Source: Phormidium sp. OSCR (lineage in GTDB: Bacteria > Cyanobacteriota > Cyanobacteriia > Cyanobacteriales > Geitlerinemataceae). Taken from it: a DNA stretch of 64,000 bases. Location: contig LJZT01000002.1 in NCBI GenBank assembly GCA_001314905.1, positions 62,001 to 126,000 on the forward strand. The letters run 5' to 3'. A program made the position numbers and the translations under genes. The notes under the pieces are model-generated. The model did no database searches, was not told the DNA's origin, and saw only the letters and a list, made by a program, of their open reading frames with translations. Below, piece after piece: positions 47,452 through 56,579 of the stretch (its first letter is position 1; each line of letters opens with the position of its first letter).

Positions 47452-47508
47452 GTTCCCTGTTCCCTGCCTTGCCTCTTGCCTATTCCCTAGTCCCTATTCC
47501 CCGTTCCC
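47452..47508. repeat. Degenerate heptanucleotide array (GGGAAYN / GGCAAGA units on minus strand)
   Basis: Minus strand reads TGGGAAC GGGGAAT AGGGACT AGGGAAT AGGCAAG AGGCAAG, and contains the uvrD-like stop codon. Confidence 0.85.
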
Positions 47509-49912
47509 AAAGGGCATTAAAGGGAGGGGATGCGGGGAAGGGCTGGGGATTTTGCAGGTTATTCCAGGTAAATGGGGCATTTTTAGCGGCCGAGAGCCAG
47601 AGGAAGCGTTTGGCGCGAGTCATGGCCACATAAAGGAGACGATAGTCTTCGGCTTTTTTGAGTTGTTCGGCCAGTTGCCAATAGTCGTCGTAGCTTTGGC
47701 AGTTTGGCGCGGCTTCGTTGTCGGTGGTGTCGCGATTCCAGAGATGTTGACGGATTTGTCCTCGGGCGACTTCGTCGAGGCTGAAGTGGCCGAGAAACTG
47801 CATTTGCGGTTTGACGTAGAGTTCGCCGGGGATGTTTTTCTCTTGTAGGAAGGGGATAAAGACGAAATCCCAGTCTAGGCCTTTGGCTTTGTGCATGGTC
47901 AGGATGGTGAGTTGTCCGGGTTGGGTATATTTGGACTCGGAGGCGTCGGTTTCGACGCGATCGAAGCGTTCGCTGTTGACAAGGAGGGTCAGGTTGTCGA
48001 GGAGTTCTTCGAGGGAAAGGCGATCGCTGGTTTGTTGAAGGAGGCGTTCGTTGAGTTTGTCGGCGGTGGCGAGTTCGCTGGCGTTGTAGTTGAGGGTCAG
48101 CCCCAGAAAGCCGATGAGATGGGTTTGGGGCAGTTCCAAGCGGGCTTGGAGAAGACAACGGCACAGGTGACGGGCTTGGCGCACGTCTGGGGGTTGGGGG
48201 GCTTCGAGAATGGTGGGATAGAGGAAGTGTTCGGGGCTGCTGGCGAGGCGATCGAGGTCTTGACGGGGGATGAGGTGATGGTTAACGAGGACTTCTAGGG
48301 CGGCTTTGACGGCTTCGCGGGAATGGGGACGATGCAGGAATTGCAGCAGGTTGAGCATCTCTAGGGGAATGCCCGAGAGTCGTTCTTCGGCGTCGACTTC
48401 GTAGAGGTTGAGGTGGTTGTGATATTGATTGAGTTCGCTGGCGACGAAATGCCCTTGGTTTTTCTGGCGGACGAGGACGGCGGCGCTGGCCTGGGGATAC
48501 TGTGCGAAGAGGTCGCTAATTCGTTGCCCGAGGCGATCGACGCTCTCGCTAATATCATGGGGACGATGCAGTTCGAGGCCTGCGGCGATGGGGTCAGGGT
48601 TGGCGTTGGGTTGAGGGTCGTCGGCGGTGACGGGTTCAATCATCTGCTGTTCAAAGGGGGGTGGAGACTTGAGGGCTGGGGAGGGCGGTTTGGTTGTACG
48701 GTCTCGGGAGGAGGGGGTTGAGGTGGGTTTGCTCCATTGTTGGTTAATCCAGTTGAGGGTGAAGTTGGCGGCGTCGATGAGGATGGGGCTACTGCGTCCG
48801 GCCCGCTGTATGGTGGTTCGTTGGTGATGTTGGGCGCAATGGTGGCAAAAGCGGCGGAAGTAAATGGGATCGGCGGGGGTGAAGGTGGAGTTAATGGCTT
48901 GGTTGGGGTCGCCGACTCGGATTAGGTTGGCGCTTCCGTCGGGGTTTTGGGCGAGGGTGTCGAGGAGTTGCTGTTGTAGGGGTGAGGAGTCTTGGGCTTC
49001 GTCTTCAAAGACGGCAAAGGTTTCTTGTTGCCAGAGGTCTCGGATGTTGGGGTTTTGGAGAACGTTGAGGGCGGCGATGATGGCGTCGTCGTAGTCGATC
49101 AGTTGCTGCGATCGCATCTGCTCTTGATAGAGTCGATAGAGGCCGGCGGCGATGGTGAGGATGGCGTAGGGGTCTCCTTGGAGTTGCCCGAGGTGGTGCA
49201 GGTCTTCTGGGGAGAGTCCTGAGGATTTGGCTTCTTGGATGACGGTGTGGGCCAGGTTGGGCAAAACGTCGGTTCTGAGGACGGATTGGCGGCGCAGTCG
49301 TTCGGACTCTTCTCCGTCAAATTCTAGGCCGGTAATGAGCTGTTGATAGGCTTGGGGATGGTCTGTAATCCAGCGTTCGACGCAGTTACGGATGAGGCGG
49401 TGGTTTTGGTTGGGTTGTACTAGGCTTTGTTGGTCGAGATCGAGTTGCGCGAGATCCGGGTGACGGCCGGCGATTTTGAAGGCTAGGCCATGGATGGTTT
49501 GGACGGAAAAGCCCCATTTGGGCAGTTTGAGGAGTTCTAGGTTTTGACGGATTTTGGCTTTGATGTTGGCGGCGGCGGAGCGGGTAAAGGTGACGATGAT
49601 GAGTTGATGGCGCGGATGCAGTCGTTGTCGGGCGATGGTGAGGGCGGCGGCGATCGCCATTCCGGTGGATTTGCCCGAACCAGGAACGGCGGAGACGGCG
49701 AGAAGTCCTCCTTGCCAGTCTCCCATTTCTCGTTGTCCGGGACGCAGGCTATTGCGGAGTTGTTGGATCAGTTGGGGGCGATCGATCGGAGAGGGTTTGG
49801 ATTCGCTTAAGGTCATAGCAATTGGCTCGGAATTGGGGGAAAATGGGCTGTCAGCCGTTATTGGCAGTTTATCGTTTTCCCGATTAACCGGTCTTTGAGG
49901 ATTTATGCGCAA
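47480..49912 (-). CDS. UvrD/Rep-family ATP-dependent helicase
   Basis: Walker A SAVPGSGKSTGMAIA, FEDEAQDSSPLQQQLL, RVGDPNQAINSTFT, LTMHKAKGLDWDFVFIP, YVAMTRAKRFLWLS. Confidence 0.93.
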   Translation of the reverse strand: MRINPQRPVNRENDKLPITADSPFSPNSEPIAMTLSESKPSPIDRPQLIQQLRNSLRPGQREMGDWQGGLLAVSAVPGSGKSTGMAIAAALTIARQRLHPRHQLIIVTFTRSAAANIKAKIRQNLELLKLPKWGFSVQTIHGLAFKIAGRHPDLAQLDLDQQSLVQPNQNHRLIRNCVERWITDHPQAYQQLITGLEFDGEESERLRRQSVLRTDVLPNLAHTVIQEAKSSGLSPEDLHHLGQLQGDPYAILTIAAGLYRLYQEQMRSQQLIDYDDAIIAALNVLQNPNIRDLWQQETFAVFEDEAQDSSPLQQQLLDTLAQNPDGSANLIRVGDPNQAINSTFTPADPIYFRRFCHHCAQHHQRTTIQRAGRSSPILIDAANFTLNWINQQWSKPTSTPSSRDRTTKPPSPALKSPPPFEQQMIEPVTADDPQPNANPDPIAAGLELHRPHDISESVDRLGQRISDLFAQYPQASAAVLVRQKNQGHFVASELNQYHNHLNLYEVDAEERLSGIPLEMLNLLQFLHRPHSREAVKAALEVLVNHHLIPRQDLDRLASSPEHFLYPTILEAPQPPDVRQARHLCRCLLQARLELPQTHLIGFLGLTLNYNASELATADKLNERLLQQTSDRLSLEELLDNLTLLVNSERFDRVETDASESKYTQPGQLTILTMHKAKGLDWDFVFIPFLQEKNIPGELYVKPQMQFLGHFSLDEVARGQIRQHLWNRDTTDNEAAPNCQSYDDYWQLAEQLKKAEDYRLLYVAMTRAKRFLWLSAAKNAPFTWNNLQNPQPFPASPPFNALWERGIGTRE

Positions 49913-51250: not shown

Positions 51251-51287
51251 TCTGGACAAGACCAAACTATCTTTCGTTTTCCTCTGC

Positions 51288-52841
51288 CTATAACTGGACT
51301 TTGGGGGGCATTCCCACTTCTCGCGGCGTGACAAACTTGCCCTCAAAACTCACAGCACGATTTTCAAATGTCCTGGCCTTAGCTAAATCCAGCCGTAAAT
51401 CAGCAATCTCTTGATTCTCTGACATTCCGCCCAAAACATAAATGAGTAATTTCCGAGCTAAGTCTTTTCCCGAGACACGAATCCGGCGTTTGTTGGGGTC
51501 ATAGAGGACGCCATACCATAAGGATTGAGGCAATTCTATCGACGTAAAGCCGCCGTCATCATCAAACTTCTGGAGACGATTCAAGGCTTCGACGACAGAA
51601 ATCTGACGTTGGAACACGACAACTCCTAAAGCTTGTGCTAAAGCCACTTGTCCGACGGGACGAAAGAGAAGATTTCCCTCGCCTGAACCGCTTTCAAAGC
51701 TAAATCGTCGTAAATACGGAGTTTCGACTCCCAATTCCATGCGTTTGTAACTCGGAAGGGTCGCCAAACCATCCCAGAGACGCATCAATTCGGATAATCC
51801 TTCGGCTAAGTCGTCGGCGGTGGGACGTGGGGGAATGGTTCCGGGGTAGTCGGCTAGCCAATGGGGAAAGCGAGGCGTTAAATAGCCAACGGTCATGTCT
51901 CGCAAGGCCTGGAGGGTGGTGAGGACTAGGGATTTCGCGGAGACACTGGCCCCATCCCAGTTAATGCGGGGGCGACGGCTATCGTCATCTCGGAGGAGGG
52001 GATGGGTGACGGCGATTTGACGGCTGATAATGGCAAATCCATCGTCTTCGTCTAATAGGGTGACTTGACCTTTGCTGAGTTTCACGGCCATGAGGTTGAC
52101 ATGGACGAAAATTGAGCGGATACGCTGTCTGGCGTCTTCTCGGGTTTCTCGGGGTAAGACGGCGGGAATCAACTCAATGCCGAGGGTTTCTTGGGCCAAG
52201 TCTTGCATGGCGGCGGGGGTGGTGTTGTTGGCGGCGGCGAGGTGGTCGAGGTTGAGGGGGGTTCCGGTGGGTTTCTGGCTACGACTGAGGGGTTGCAGGG
52301 TTCCGGTTTGCAGTAGGGTCATCAGGCCTTGGATTCCCATGAGTCGATGTTGTCCGTCTAAGGCGAAGATGGAGATGGATGGGGGGAGGTTGAGATGGCC
52401 GATGTCCCGGATGTCGGTTAGGGGGGTGAAGTCGGCGGCGGATTGTGTGGCCCGTCCGTCGTCTCCCCATTGGCTGGCTTGGGGGTTGTCTACCCAGTCG
52501 GGACTGATGACGGCGAGGAGGGGCGGAAATTTGCGATCGCGCCTTCCGGCAAGATATTCTGTGAGGGGAGCTTGCCGTGACCAGTTGAGGGGACGTTGGT
52601 AAAGGCGGTCGATGGTCTCTGGGTTGATGGAGATGTTGGCGGTTTTGGGGTCTCGTTGCTGGTGGAATAGGGGGAGTTCTGCGGCAAAGCCGACTCGTTC
52701 GGCTAGCCAGGCGAGGCTGACTGAGGCTAGGTAGGCTTCGGTGTTTCCCATCTGGGTCTTCTGCACGAGGACTGTGTTTGGGTTATCTTGGTAGGAGGGT
52801 TCAGCAGTTGAATTTAGGTGCGTTGGTATTATAGGGGTCAT
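51288..52841 (-). CDS. dndB: DGQHR-domain protein, DndB-like
   Basis: ISIFALDGQHRLMGIQGL diagnostic motif; divergent from dndC; start at MTPIIPTHLNS. Confidence 0.85.
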   Translation of the reverse strand: MTPIIPTHLNSTAEPSYQDNPNTVLVQKTQMGNTEAYLASVSLAWLAERVGFAAELPLFHQQRDPKTANISINPETIDRLYQRPLNWSRQAPLTEYLAGRRDRKFPPLLAVISPDWVDNPQASQWGDDGRATQSAADFTPLTDIRDIGHLNLPPSISIFALDGQHRLMGIQGLMTLLQTGTLQPLSRSQKPTGTPLNLDHLAAANNTTPAAMQDLAQETLGIELIPAVLPRETREDARQRIRSIFVHVNLMAVKLSKGQVTLLDEDDGFAIISRQIAVTHPLLRDDDSRRPRINWDGASVSAKSLVLTTLQALRDMTVGYLTPRFPHWLADYPGTIPPRPTADDLAEGLSELMRLWDGLATLPSYKRMELGVETPYLRRFSFESGSGEGNLLFRPVGQVALAQALGVVVFQRQISVVEALNRLQKFDDDGGFTSIELPQSLWYGVLYDPNKRRIRVSGKDLARKLLIYVLGGMSENQEIADLRLDLAKARTFENRAVSFEGKFVTPREVGMPPKVQL

Positions 52842-52858
52842 TTTAACTGTCTCTAACT

Positions 52859-52876
52859 GAATAGATATATCTATTC
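52859..52876. promoter_or_regulatory. 18-bp perfect palindrome in the dndB-dndC intergenic region
   Basis: GAATAGATATATCTATTC equals its own reverse complement. Confidence 0.6.
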
Positions 52877-52935
52877 GCAAGTGTCTTATCATTTTACCAC
52901 TTCAGCAAACTTTTAGAAGTAGGAGATTTTTGAAT

Positions 52936-54489
52936 ATGGTATCAACCCAGAAAACAAAACAACAGTCTAAAAATCGTAGCATTGAAGAATTCACTTCCGA
53001 TATAAAACTACTGACCAAAGAAGTTCAAGATTTATACCGTCTCGATCAGATACCGTGGGTCATTGGTTACTCAGGGGGTAAAGATAGTACGGCAACTCTC
53101 CAGTTGATCTGGAATGCGCTCAAAGAATTACCCAAGGATAAACTCACCAAAACAGTCCATGTAATTACCACAGACACCCTCGTTGAAAATCCTATCGTAT
53201 CGGCTTGGGTGAAGAACTCACTCAAGAAAATAGAGGTAGAAGCTAAGTCTCAAGACTTACCATTCGAGACACATTTGTTGCAGCCTGCTGCTAAAGAAAC
53301 GTTCTGGGTTGGACTAATTGGTAAAGGCTACCCCGCACCGAAGGGTAAATTTCGCTGGTGTACTGAGCGGCTTAAAATTAAGCCATCTAATCATTTTATC
53401 CGAGAAGTCATTAGACAATCGGGTGAAGCGATACTAGTCTTGGGAATTCGTAAAGCTGAAAGTACTAAACGAGCTAATCGGATGGAGCGATATGAGGCTC
53501 ATCGTGTTCGAAAACACTTGAGTCCCAACATGAATTTACCGAATTCTTTGGTTTATAGCCCTATCGAAGATTGGCAAAATGATGAGGTATGGCTTTATCT
53601 GATGCAATGGGATAATCCTTGGGGCTACAGCAATAAAGACTTGTTAACTATGTATCGTGGTGCTAGTGCTGACAATGAATGTCCTCTTGTCGTTGATACC
53701 ACGACTCCGAGTTGCGGAAGTTCTCGGTTTGGTTGTTGGGTTTGTACTCTTGTAAGCCAAGATAAGTCATTATCGGCGATGATTCAGAATGACGAAGAAA
53801 AAGCATGGATGGAACCATTGCTAGATCTTCGTGCTGAACTAGATACACCTGAAAGTCGTAATATGCGCGACTTTCGGCGGCGTAACGGGAAAGTCCAACT
53901 TTATGAACGAAATCTGGAGGGTTCGGTTTCCATTGAACCAATTCCAGGTCCATTTACGAAAGCGGGTCGAGAATATTGGCTACGTCGTCTTCTTGCAACT
54001 CAAGAAACCGTCCGTCGAACCGCTCCCCCCGAAATGCGGGACATCACCCTCATCACAACCGAAGAACTCAGCGAAATCCGGCGGATTTGGCTCGAAGAAC
54101 GTCATGAATTCGACGATCGCCTGCCCACAGTATACCGAGAAATCACCGGCAAACCCTTCAAAGACCCTCGGCCTGGTGCCGACCAATCCCTCCTCGGACT
54201 CGACGAGTGGAACATCCTCGAAGACCTCTCCGACGGAGACGCCATGGAACTTGAACTCATGGCCAAACTCCTCGACACCGAACGCCAGTACCACACCAAA
54301 CTCAACCGCAAAGGCATCTACGACGCCTTAGAAAAATGCTTTGAGACCAGTTCCCGTTCCCCCGAAGAAGCCATCGCCAACGCTCACCGGAAACGGGAAC
54401 TCAAAGAAGCCGCCGCCGCTGGAGATGTGGCCAAAGTTAAACAACTGACTTGGTCAGATCTCAAATTCGGCGACTCCCCAGACTCCTAA
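52936..54489 (+). CDS. dndC: DNA phosphorothioation sulfurtransferase DndC-like
   Basis: WVIGYSGGKDSTATLQLIWNAL PP-loop, RWCTERLKIKPSNHFI, LGIRKAESTKRANRME, CPLVVDTTTPSCGSSRFGCWVCTLVSQDKSLSAMI. ATG taken at 52936. Confidence 0.92.
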   Translation: MVSTQKTKQQSKNRSIEEFTSDIKLLTKEVQDLYRLDQIPWVIGYSGGKDSTATLQLIWNALKELPKDKLTKTVHVITTDTLVENPIVSAWVKNSLKKIEVEAKSQDLPFETHLLQPAAKETFWVGLIGKGYPAPKGKFRWCTERLKIKPSNHFIREVIRQSGEAILVLGIRKAESTKRANRMERYEAHRVRKHLSPNMNLPNSLVYSPIEDWQNDEVWLYLMQWDNPWGYSNKDLLTMYRGASADNECPLVVDTTTPSCGSSRFGCWVCTLVSQDKSLSAMIQNDEEKAWMEPLLDLRAELDTPESRNMRDFRRRNGKVQLYERNLEGSVSIEPIPGPFTKAGREYWLRRLLATQETVRRTAPPEMRDITLITTEELSEIRRIWLEERHEFDDRLPTVYREITGKPFKDPRPGADQSLLGLDEWNILEDLSDGDAMELELMAKLLDTERQYHTKLNRKGIYDALEKCFETSSRSPEEAIANAHRKRELKEAAAAGDVAKVKQLTWSDLKFGDSPDS

Positions 54490-56108
54490 CGGGGAAACCA
54501 ATGTAATAATGAGGTTTGCTTGCGATCGCGCGATCGCAGATACCGCAGCAAATGCTCCCCACTCAACGGAGGTAACAGATAATGCTGTAACTCCAGCGAG
54601 TGCAACATCCAGGGTAGACCATACCCCGCGCGATCGCTTAACCCCAAAATTGGCAAACTCGCAAAACGGGAATCCTCACGTAGCTGACTGGCCCAATTGC
54701 GGCCTTGGGCCTCACTGAGATCTCCCTGAAGCGTCACCATATCAACCGAAGTCCCCAACGACTGACTCAACGCCTCCTGAGGTGTCTCCACAAACTGCAC
54801 CTCATAGCGATTTTGTCGGAACAGCCGCTGAGTTTCTCGCAACTGCGTCGGCGTCTCACCCACCGCCAACACCCGCGTTGTATCACTCCTAGACCCCGAA
54901 TTCTTCCAATTCGTCGGACAGTCATCACATAACGTACATTCCGGGCCATCATAAACACGACCATAACGAGTGGGAATCGGCAGATGACAGCGTTGACATT
55001 CCAACACCGTATAACGTCCCTCCAAGAAATTCTCAAAACAACGCATATCTCCCATCAAATAAAGCTTACGAAAATCCGCTCGCTGTTGCAGTCGCCGCCA
55101 GAAGTTCTCAAACTCAAAGCGATAGCCTTCATAGCCATACACCGCACCCGGAAACCCCAGACGTCCCTGATGAGGACTCATAATCCCCTTACCGCGACTG
55201 AGATAGTACGCCACATAGCTTTTCAGTAACTCATCCGGCGAAACCGTCATCGCCGTAGACGGAGACACCGACTCCCTCGATGTCTCTGGCGGGGGTAACT
55301 CCGGCCGAGGTAGAGGACGCAATAACTGCTCTTGATGAATAAACGCCGTCTCCCGTAAGGCCTCATGAGCCGCTTGTAACTCACAATAGCGGCGATCGCG
55401 CTCCAACGATCGCGCCAACTGTTGCGCCAACAAAAGCGTCGTATCAATCTCCCGCTGCGACCAACTGCGGGCCGTATAACATTGATGGACCGCCAAAAGT
55501 CCCCACAACGACAATCCCTGCATTTCTTGCAAACGCACAGGAACCACCAACTTCGCTGAAACCTCAAAAAAGCACTCTAAAATCTTCGTCGGACAGCGAT
55601 CGAGATCCATCGAATTTAAATCCGCGATCGCCTGGAGTTTCCCCTCCTGAAACTGTAGAATCTCCTCAGCACTAAAAAAGCGACCTAAACGGCATTTAAG
55701 CATCGATGAGCGTCCCGGTGCATGAGACTCCGCCACCACCGTCGCCTCCCACTTCCGAGTCGTTCGGCAAAGAATCACCCGGTCCGCGCGTAAAATTTTT
55801 CGGACCCCATCGACCGTCTCATGTAACAGGGCCGGAAACTGATCCGAAAAACGCTCAGAAATCGGCTTGGCTATCGTCGTCTCCTGGGACTCAACCGGGG
55901 CCAGCACCTGACGACTCGGAGACACCGGTTCCTCACCCACCGGTTGAAGCTGATGATTTTCTACAACAGTTGCATGGGACAAATGCGTCGTTTCCACCGT
56001 TCCATAAGGCATTTCCTGATGACAGCGAGGACAGAACCAGCGCAACGTCCCTTGACGGACATAGCCTAATAAAGGGTAAGAACAACAAGGACAGAGAAAA
56101 TTTGACAT
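54486..56108 (-). CDS. Zinc-ribbon + GAF + receiver-like cyanobacterial regulatory protein
   Basis: N-terminal CPCCSYPLLG...WFCPRCHQEMP; GAF-like region; CQRCHLPIP...CTLCDDCP; C-terminal receiver-like LAVGETPTQLRETQRLFRQNRYEVQFVETPQEAL...LPILGLSDR. Confidence 0.75.
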   Translation of the reverse strand: MSNFLCPCCSYPLLGYVRQGTLRWFCPRCHQEMPYGTVETTHLSHATVVENHQLQPVGEEPVSPSRQVLAPVESQETTIAKPISERFSDQFPALLHETVDGVRKILRADRVILCRTTRKWEATVVAESHAPGRSSMLKCRLGRFFSAEEILQFQEGKLQAIADLNSMDLDRCPTKILECFFEVSAKLVVPVRLQEMQGLSLWGLLAVHQCYTARSWSQREIDTTLLLAQQLARSLERDRRYCELQAAHEALRETAFIHQEQLLRPLPRPELPPPETSRESVSPSTAMTVSPDELLKSYVAYYLSRGKGIMSPHQGRLGFPGAVYGYEGYRFEFENFWRRLQQRADFRKLYLMGDMRCFENFLEGRYTVLECQRCHLPIPTRYGRVYDGPECTLCDDCPTNWKNSGSRSDTTRVLAVGETPTQLRETQRLFRQNRYEVQFVETPQEALSQSLGTSVDMVTLQGDLSEAQGRNWASQLREDSRFASLPILGLSDRAGYGLPWMLHSLELQHYLLPPLSGEHLLRYLRSRDRKQTSLLHWFPR

Positions 56109-56579
56109 CAGCTTCACCTCAATAGGACGTTTAAAAACATTGCGATCGCAACCCATCCTCACCCTGAAACCATCGTTTTGCCGCAACGTATTATGATAAG
56201 TTATCTTCTAAAATTCTAAATCACCGCCCTAACCGATTTCCGGAATTTCGGGCATCTTGTATCAAGAATTAATATTCAGTGACGTACCGCCTCCCCAGAC
56301 CCATTTTCTCCCCAGACTCCCTTGACAAAATGACCAAAACTCCCCTCAATAAAACAACACAGCTATTGTTTAACTCCTCCTTGCGTCCCCCAGACCCGCC
56401 ATTTTCCTAAACAAATGTAACGAAATGTTGCAAATTTTCTATCAAATTGTTTCAGAACCCTGATTTTGCTAAAGGCCCCCTAACATTATTTGGTAAAAAC
56501 ACCTATATAGCTAAATTCCACAAGCCCATCCCAGACCAGGTTTAGTAAAATCACGAATCGCGTAAGGAGTAACCCATTC

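Follow-up and report, generated by a model that had tools for sequence, protein, structure and literature searches.

Several described systems bear on the locus analysed here. Disordered dnd clusters in Cyanobacteria were already described by Jian et al. 2021 (PMC8569181). In the available part of that paper, the cyanobacterial dndBCDE genes share with ours the DndB, DndC, DndD and DndE families, disordered operons, a place in Cyanobacteriales and the lack of any reported DndFGH, and the DndC and DndD phylogenies show a similar pattern, with no intragenic DndC exchange described. Rakesh et al. 2024 (PMC10853773) stated that the DndD-DndE dyad is always linked, and argued for DndE rather than DndC as the determinant of the target. 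Fu et al. 2025 (PMC12193691) proposed, from predicted complexes and mutants, that the DndC loop GYPAPxxxFRW reads the motif, with TRS corresponding to GpsAAC/GpsTTC, R-x-K/R to GpsGCC, and TQN or NQT to GpsATC. The same work, which is mostly structure prediction with limited mutant tests, docks DndD on E. coli DndC residues 433-482 plus the C-terminal helix; mutation of the loop abolished modification and gave no retargeting. Exchange of target-recognition domains (TRDs) was described for Type I HsdS and other methyltransferases by Furuta et al. 2011, 2014 (PMC3077401, PMC3983042).

The window, a 64,000-nucleotide stretch of the 4.69 Mb genome of Phormidium sp. OSCR (G000), shares its GTDB genus with G004, whose dndC contig belongs to Phormidium willei BDU 130791. 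The following features were assigned in the window:

51288..52892, minus strand: dndB, DGQHR/ParB-like regulator; PF14072 47.6 bits (cut-off 29.1) and TIGR03187 DGQHR 148 bits (cut-off 58.9) by profile search
52771..54010, no strand assigned: exchanged block comprising the dndB end, the dndB-dndC spacer and DndC residues 1 to ~358, delimited by the DNA identity drop against sister G001
52930..54489, plus strand: dndC, PP-loop sulfurtransferase; TIGR03183 697 bits (cut-off 290), match spanning residues 29-473
53071..53088, plus strand: PP-loop motif SGGKDS, DndC residues 48-53, invariant in the alignment
53326..53358, plus strand: proposed specificity loop GYPAPKGKFRW, DndC residues 133-143, aligned with E. 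coli GYPAPTRSFRW (PMC12193691)
53359-53361, plus strand: cysteine C144 of DndC, invariant column, presumed Fe-S ligand
53713..53745, plus strand: cysteines C262, C269 and C272, invariant alignment columns, presumed Fe-S ligands
54010..54486, plus strand: resident DndC C-terminal part, residues 361-519, 99.3% identical to G001, with a tree that follows taxonomy
54193-54342, plus strand: DndD-docking segment, DndC residues 422-471, mapping to E. coli 433-482
54486..56186, minus strand: neighbour with GAF, REC-like and Cys-rich (zinc-ribbon) regions; PF01590 above cut-off, PF00072 below

Open reading frames and family profiles above cut-off confirmed the divergent dndB-dndC pair of the preliminary description, and the overlap it had reported between the dndC 3' end and the convergent GAF/zinc-ribbon gene was found to be 4 bp (stop at 54489 against 54486). 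The likely start of dndB is an internal ATG at about 52841, because its homologs align only from residue ~18-39; for dndC, an ATG at 52936 is more likely than the TTG at 52930 that opens the reading frame. The two genes also adjoin each other in G001, G002, G004 and G005, all of the same genus as the window. The convergent gene, which lies beside dndC elsewhere in the genus too, is no Dnd component. It sits between dndC and bchH; these two genes are ~2 to 6 kb apart in g1, g3 and g4 and on different contigs in the genera g2 and g6. A UvrD/RecB-like helicase at 47480-49912 of the window gave weak GajB-like PADLOC matches. A sequence search of the PDB returned no relative of DndC or DndB. A fold search returned PP-loop enzymes (TtuA, NcsA, TilS/MesJ and PAPS/APS reductases) with modest TM-scores, 0.25 over the query.

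Comparison of the window with its genus revealed a mosaic dndC, an unexpected feature that lay beyond what the preliminary description could reach from the window alone. DNA identity between G000 and the sister species G001 was mostly 92-100% from 51271 to 52770, 47-74% within the exchanged block, and again 93-100% past ~54030. In the protein the breakpoint fell at residue 358, and the two species were 66.5% identical over the N-part of DndC and 99.3% over the C-part, with DndB at 94.2%, DndD at 96.0% and DndE at 92.2%. Within the genus as a whole, identity to the window was 86-94% for DndB, 92-96% for DndD and 88-92% for DndE, and just 75-76% for DndC. Sliding windows along DndC gave 95-100% past residue ~360 and 40-95% (mean 65-68%) before it. 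A third type of N-half, whose breakpoint lies around residue 260-280, was carried by G005 and brings the unrelated DndC N-halves within the genus to three.

Phylogenies of the two parts were compared, taking residues 16-355 as the N-part and 361-505 as the C-part. In the C-part tree, the five species of the genus formed a clade (SH-aLRT 99) within their own family. The N-part tree placed the window with Baaleninema simplex PCC 7105 (G008; SH-aLRT 100), a member of the same family as the window, and nested this pair among other families; G005 was paired with G009, and G001, G002 and G004 were placed elsewhere. AU tests on the N-part rejected a single genus clade (p=2e-5) and the grouping of G000 with G001 (p=1e-39); a grouping of G000 with G008 was not rejected for the C-part, which is short (p=0.38). 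From the N-part trees and AU tests it follows, at the level of sequence, that at least two N-half replacements must have occurred inside this one genus. A silent store of dndC cassettes was considered as well and rejected, G000 having one DndC match only. The dndC of G009 (L185, G009:C101:36147-37697) has an in-frame TAA in its N-half (IYSPI*DWTT), which marks either a pseudogene or a sequencing error; its dndB, dndD and dndE look intact.

The position of the breakpoint was then set against the DndC features of Fu et al. (PMC12193691), whose loop and docking region occupy the same positions in the DndC of the window. This mapping places the reader and the catalytic centre in the exchanged block and the dock in the retained part. 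A structure prediction (mean pLDDT 75) puts the breakpoint between helix 344-364 and helix 377-390. The sharp intragenic mosaic is confined to the putative DNA-reading part of DndC, the reading role being taken from PMC12193691. The variable loop residues are KGK in the window and RNK in G001, G002, G004 and G005; both being basic, the motif of the window may equal that of its RNK relatives. Baaleninema simplex PCC 7105 has KGK, like the window. KGK fits none of the three patterns in PMC12193691, and the same holds for several further cyanobacterial loops outside R-x-K/R: RNQ, RNG, RQG, THQ (G035) and KHT (G040). These last five loops may mark new phosphorothioate (PT) motifs.

Recurrence of the mosaic was investigated in same-genus pairs from 20 genera, in which the N-part, the C-part and DndD were compared; 111 pairs had DndD identities of at least 85%. 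N-part identity in these pairs was bimodal: 73 pairs lay at 64-84%, 38 at 88-100%, and none fell in the gap. C-part identity formed a single peak from 76 to 100%. Discordant pairs were found in 14 of the 20 genera and in 6 families, a count in which same-genus pairs are non-independent and many genera were added after the two-peaked identities had been seen; among the 59 relatives chosen before the pattern was known, three genera (g1, g7 and g17) of four with data were discordant. The loop residues were identical in 37 of 38 concordant pairs and in 4 of 71 discordant pairs. Examples of loops that differ within one genus are RGK and RNR in Nostoc, and RGK and RNK in g76. The lowest 120-residue window of DndC was at 66% in discordant against 89% in concordant pairs; for DndD the corresponding values were 82% and 84%, so that no swapped segment was seen in DndD. 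At 82% linkage the N-parts fell into 21 classes, several of them common to different genera. Changes of genus label numbered 27 on the N tree, 19 on the C tree and 17 on the D tree (minimum 15), and changes of loop type 18, 26 and 32, respectively (minimum 13). In most genera the right breakpoints fell within residues 358-379. Some genera keep similar DNA immediately before dndC (75-99% in g89, 94% in g99), and the left crossover therefore lies near the gene start there; in other genera it lies further upstream, as in the window. Two dndC alleles with different loops were present in one assembly in G036 (C77 and C447; KSK and RIR) and G119 (C55 and C10), and may represent either intermediates of cassette exchange or a mixture of strains in the assembly. 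No earlier report of intragenic DndC exchange was found among the open-access papers searched.

The main rival to a change of target is neutral exchange between same-target versions, in which N-halves recombine via the two flanking conserved blocks, the motif is the same for all, and the loop differences hitchhike. We think this unlikely, if worth keeping in view. The right breakpoints do adjoin the highly conserved residues ~375-402, as homologous crossover predicts, and the majority of cyanobacterial loops follow R-x-K/R, which PMC12193691 links to GpsGCC. However, DndB, DndD, DndE and the C-part of DndC remain unexchanged in the same strains, the loop differs in 67 of the 71 discordant pairs, with RNQ, RNG, RQG, THQ and KHT outside R-x-K/R among them, and the five E. 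coli alleles compared are without such replacement. Fast or diversifying evolution in place, which could produce two N-half identity peaks with no exchange since diversifying selection can hit DNA-contact surfaces, was rejected as very improbable: the gap from 84 to 88% is empty and in 38 pairs the N-halves are almost the same, different genera share identical N classes, DNA identity changes stepwise, and N-half divergence was not seen to rise continuously in proportion to that of DndD.

The contrast with E. coli was drawn from five chosen dnd alleles out of the 204 E. coli genomes carrying dndC. In these five alleles the loop was always TRS and the N-part was 95-99% identical even with DndD at 84-90%. 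An N-half swap was not seen among them, and exchange is therefore not a general property of dndC. DndFGH restriction is known in E. coli. A matching DndFGH would punish a change of motif, which is one possible reason for the lack of a swap there. For Cyanobacteria, Jian et al. 2021 (PMC8569181) report DndFGH as absent. Our own search with the DptF-type profile TIGR03238 gave no match in 59 genomes, with a control that was equally silent and a single family tried.

The preliminary description had noted that the pair stands without dndD and dndE and had left three readings: the rest is elsewhere, the locus is a remnant, or it is a minimal system with another function. It had proposed a genome-wide profile search and a comparison of gene order. 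The absence of dndD and dndE held at the locus, where neither adjoins the pair, and failed genome-wide, as both were found on other contigs of G000. A single dndD above cut-off was recovered full-length at C25:348-2384 (TIGR03185 646.5 bits, cut-off 245.9), with Walker A and LSAGE, and a single dndE at C14:19041-19430 (TIGR03184 124.7 bits, cut-off 71.9). Four cysteine desulfurases were present, the best at 427 bits and all under the DndA cut-off of 480. In other bacteria, IscS is known to stand in for DndA. A second DndD-like ABC ATPase (G000:C54:15139-17085; 155 bits, cut-off 246) lies away from the dnd genes.

G000 has no clustered dndBCDE operon, with dndBC, dndD and dndE on separate contigs. 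In the closed genomes of the genus the three also lie far apart, ~0.6 Mb to several Mb: at 0.63, 3.03 and 3.97 Mb in G001, 2.13, 4.13 and 3.50 Mb in G002, and 2.92, 4.35 and 0.38 Mb in G005, respectively. An assembly artefact is out, as both the dispersal and the N-part differences also occur in the closed G001 and G005. Both genes of the dyad of Rakesh et al. (PMC10853773) are present here, but dndD and dndE are ~0.6 to 4 Mb apart in closed G001, G002 and G005 and in contig C4 of G008. In many families of Cyanobacteriales the four genes B, C, D and E are kept together; clustering is a trait of the usual arrangement, separate from the chemistry. Dispersal here is mostly ordinary, disordered cyanobacterial loci having already been reported. 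Relative to the available part of Jian et al. (PMC8569181), the gene-by-gene dispersal in the genus and the cassette exchange are new.

A shared operator upstream of dndBC, dndD and dndE was looked for in the genus and none was found. dndD is preceded by a GC-rich repeated coding end, dndE follows closely behind another small gene, and the spacer between dndB and dndC belongs to the exchanged block itself. That g5 has lost every dnd gene was considered as proof that the unlinked genes are functionally coupled; this argument was dropped because g5 lies outside the clade with dispersed genes, BchH identity being 84% to g5 against 90-91% to g3 and g4. In G028, dndB (L235, G028:C1:682000-699000, minus strand) is split over ~9 kb in a locus with four group II intron matches (RF00029), and appears to be interrupted by about three introns.

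Decay of dndC in the window, or a separate function for the dndBC pair, is suggested by a locus without dndD or dndE and has almost nothing left in its favour: the dndC reading frame is intact and has no internal stop, SGGKDS and C144, C262, C269 and C272 are kept, 339 of the 391 Cyanobacteriales genomes carry DndC relatives, C, D and E coexist in the genomes of nearly all relatives even when unlinked, and the intact dndD and dndE of the same genome already refute it. The dndC of G041:C6 (L229), which lacks its N-half and lies with a 63-residue scrap of dndD on a plasmid-sized replicon of 264,782 bp, is a true remnant, unlike the dndC of the window.

A complete, dispersed PT modification system, with a target-reading DndC module exchanged by recombination, is the explanation we hold to be probable. 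The window would contain two genes of this system, dndB and dndC, with dndD and dndE at separate sites. Sulfur would probably come from a housekeeping cysteine desulfurase, DndCDE would insert it at a short DNA motif, and DndB probably regulates; we infer that the organism modifies its DNA. The system looks like a stably kept chromosomal modification without DndFGH restriction. The N-terminal ~358 residues of DndC, which hold the PP-loop ATPase, the Fe-S site and the putative DNA-reading loop, would derive from another lineage and have entered by homologous recombination; the C-terminal ~160 residues, predicted to dock on DndD, would be retained alongside the resident DndD and DndE. Following the example of TRD exchange in HsdS and Mod proteins, we propose that such a replacement would change the sulfur-modified sequence. 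Possible drivers are the lack of a matching restriction enzyme that fixes the motif, and escape from PT-dependent restriction or motif-specific phages. As in HsdS-type exchange, alleles would trade a DNA-reading segment and keep the remaining gene and its partners; in DndC, however, the catalytic PP-loop/Fe-S domain travels with that segment, the backbone is what is modified, and the single dndC of G000 gives no sign of a silent cassette.

The wider reading, on which we are evenly divided, is that DndC of Cyanobacteriales consists of two modules. The N-module, which is catalytic and reads DNA, would circulate freely as a specificity cassette and be recombined, between species and between genera, onto resident C-modules that dock on DndD; close strains would then sulfur-mark different motifs. 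The choice of target by Dnd systems is debated between the DndC loop (PMC12193691) and DndE (PMC10853773), and natural replacements of the N-half, with DndD, DndE, DndB and the C-part of DndC unchanged, provide strain pairs suited to decide the question. They also offer natural, already tested junctions for chimeric DndC enzymes. The pattern suggests that a widespread backbone modification, kept without DndFGH in most Cyanobacteriales, diversifies its target like type I methyltransferases. If the cassette reading is true, backbone modification patterns would change far more quickly than the genes responsible for them.
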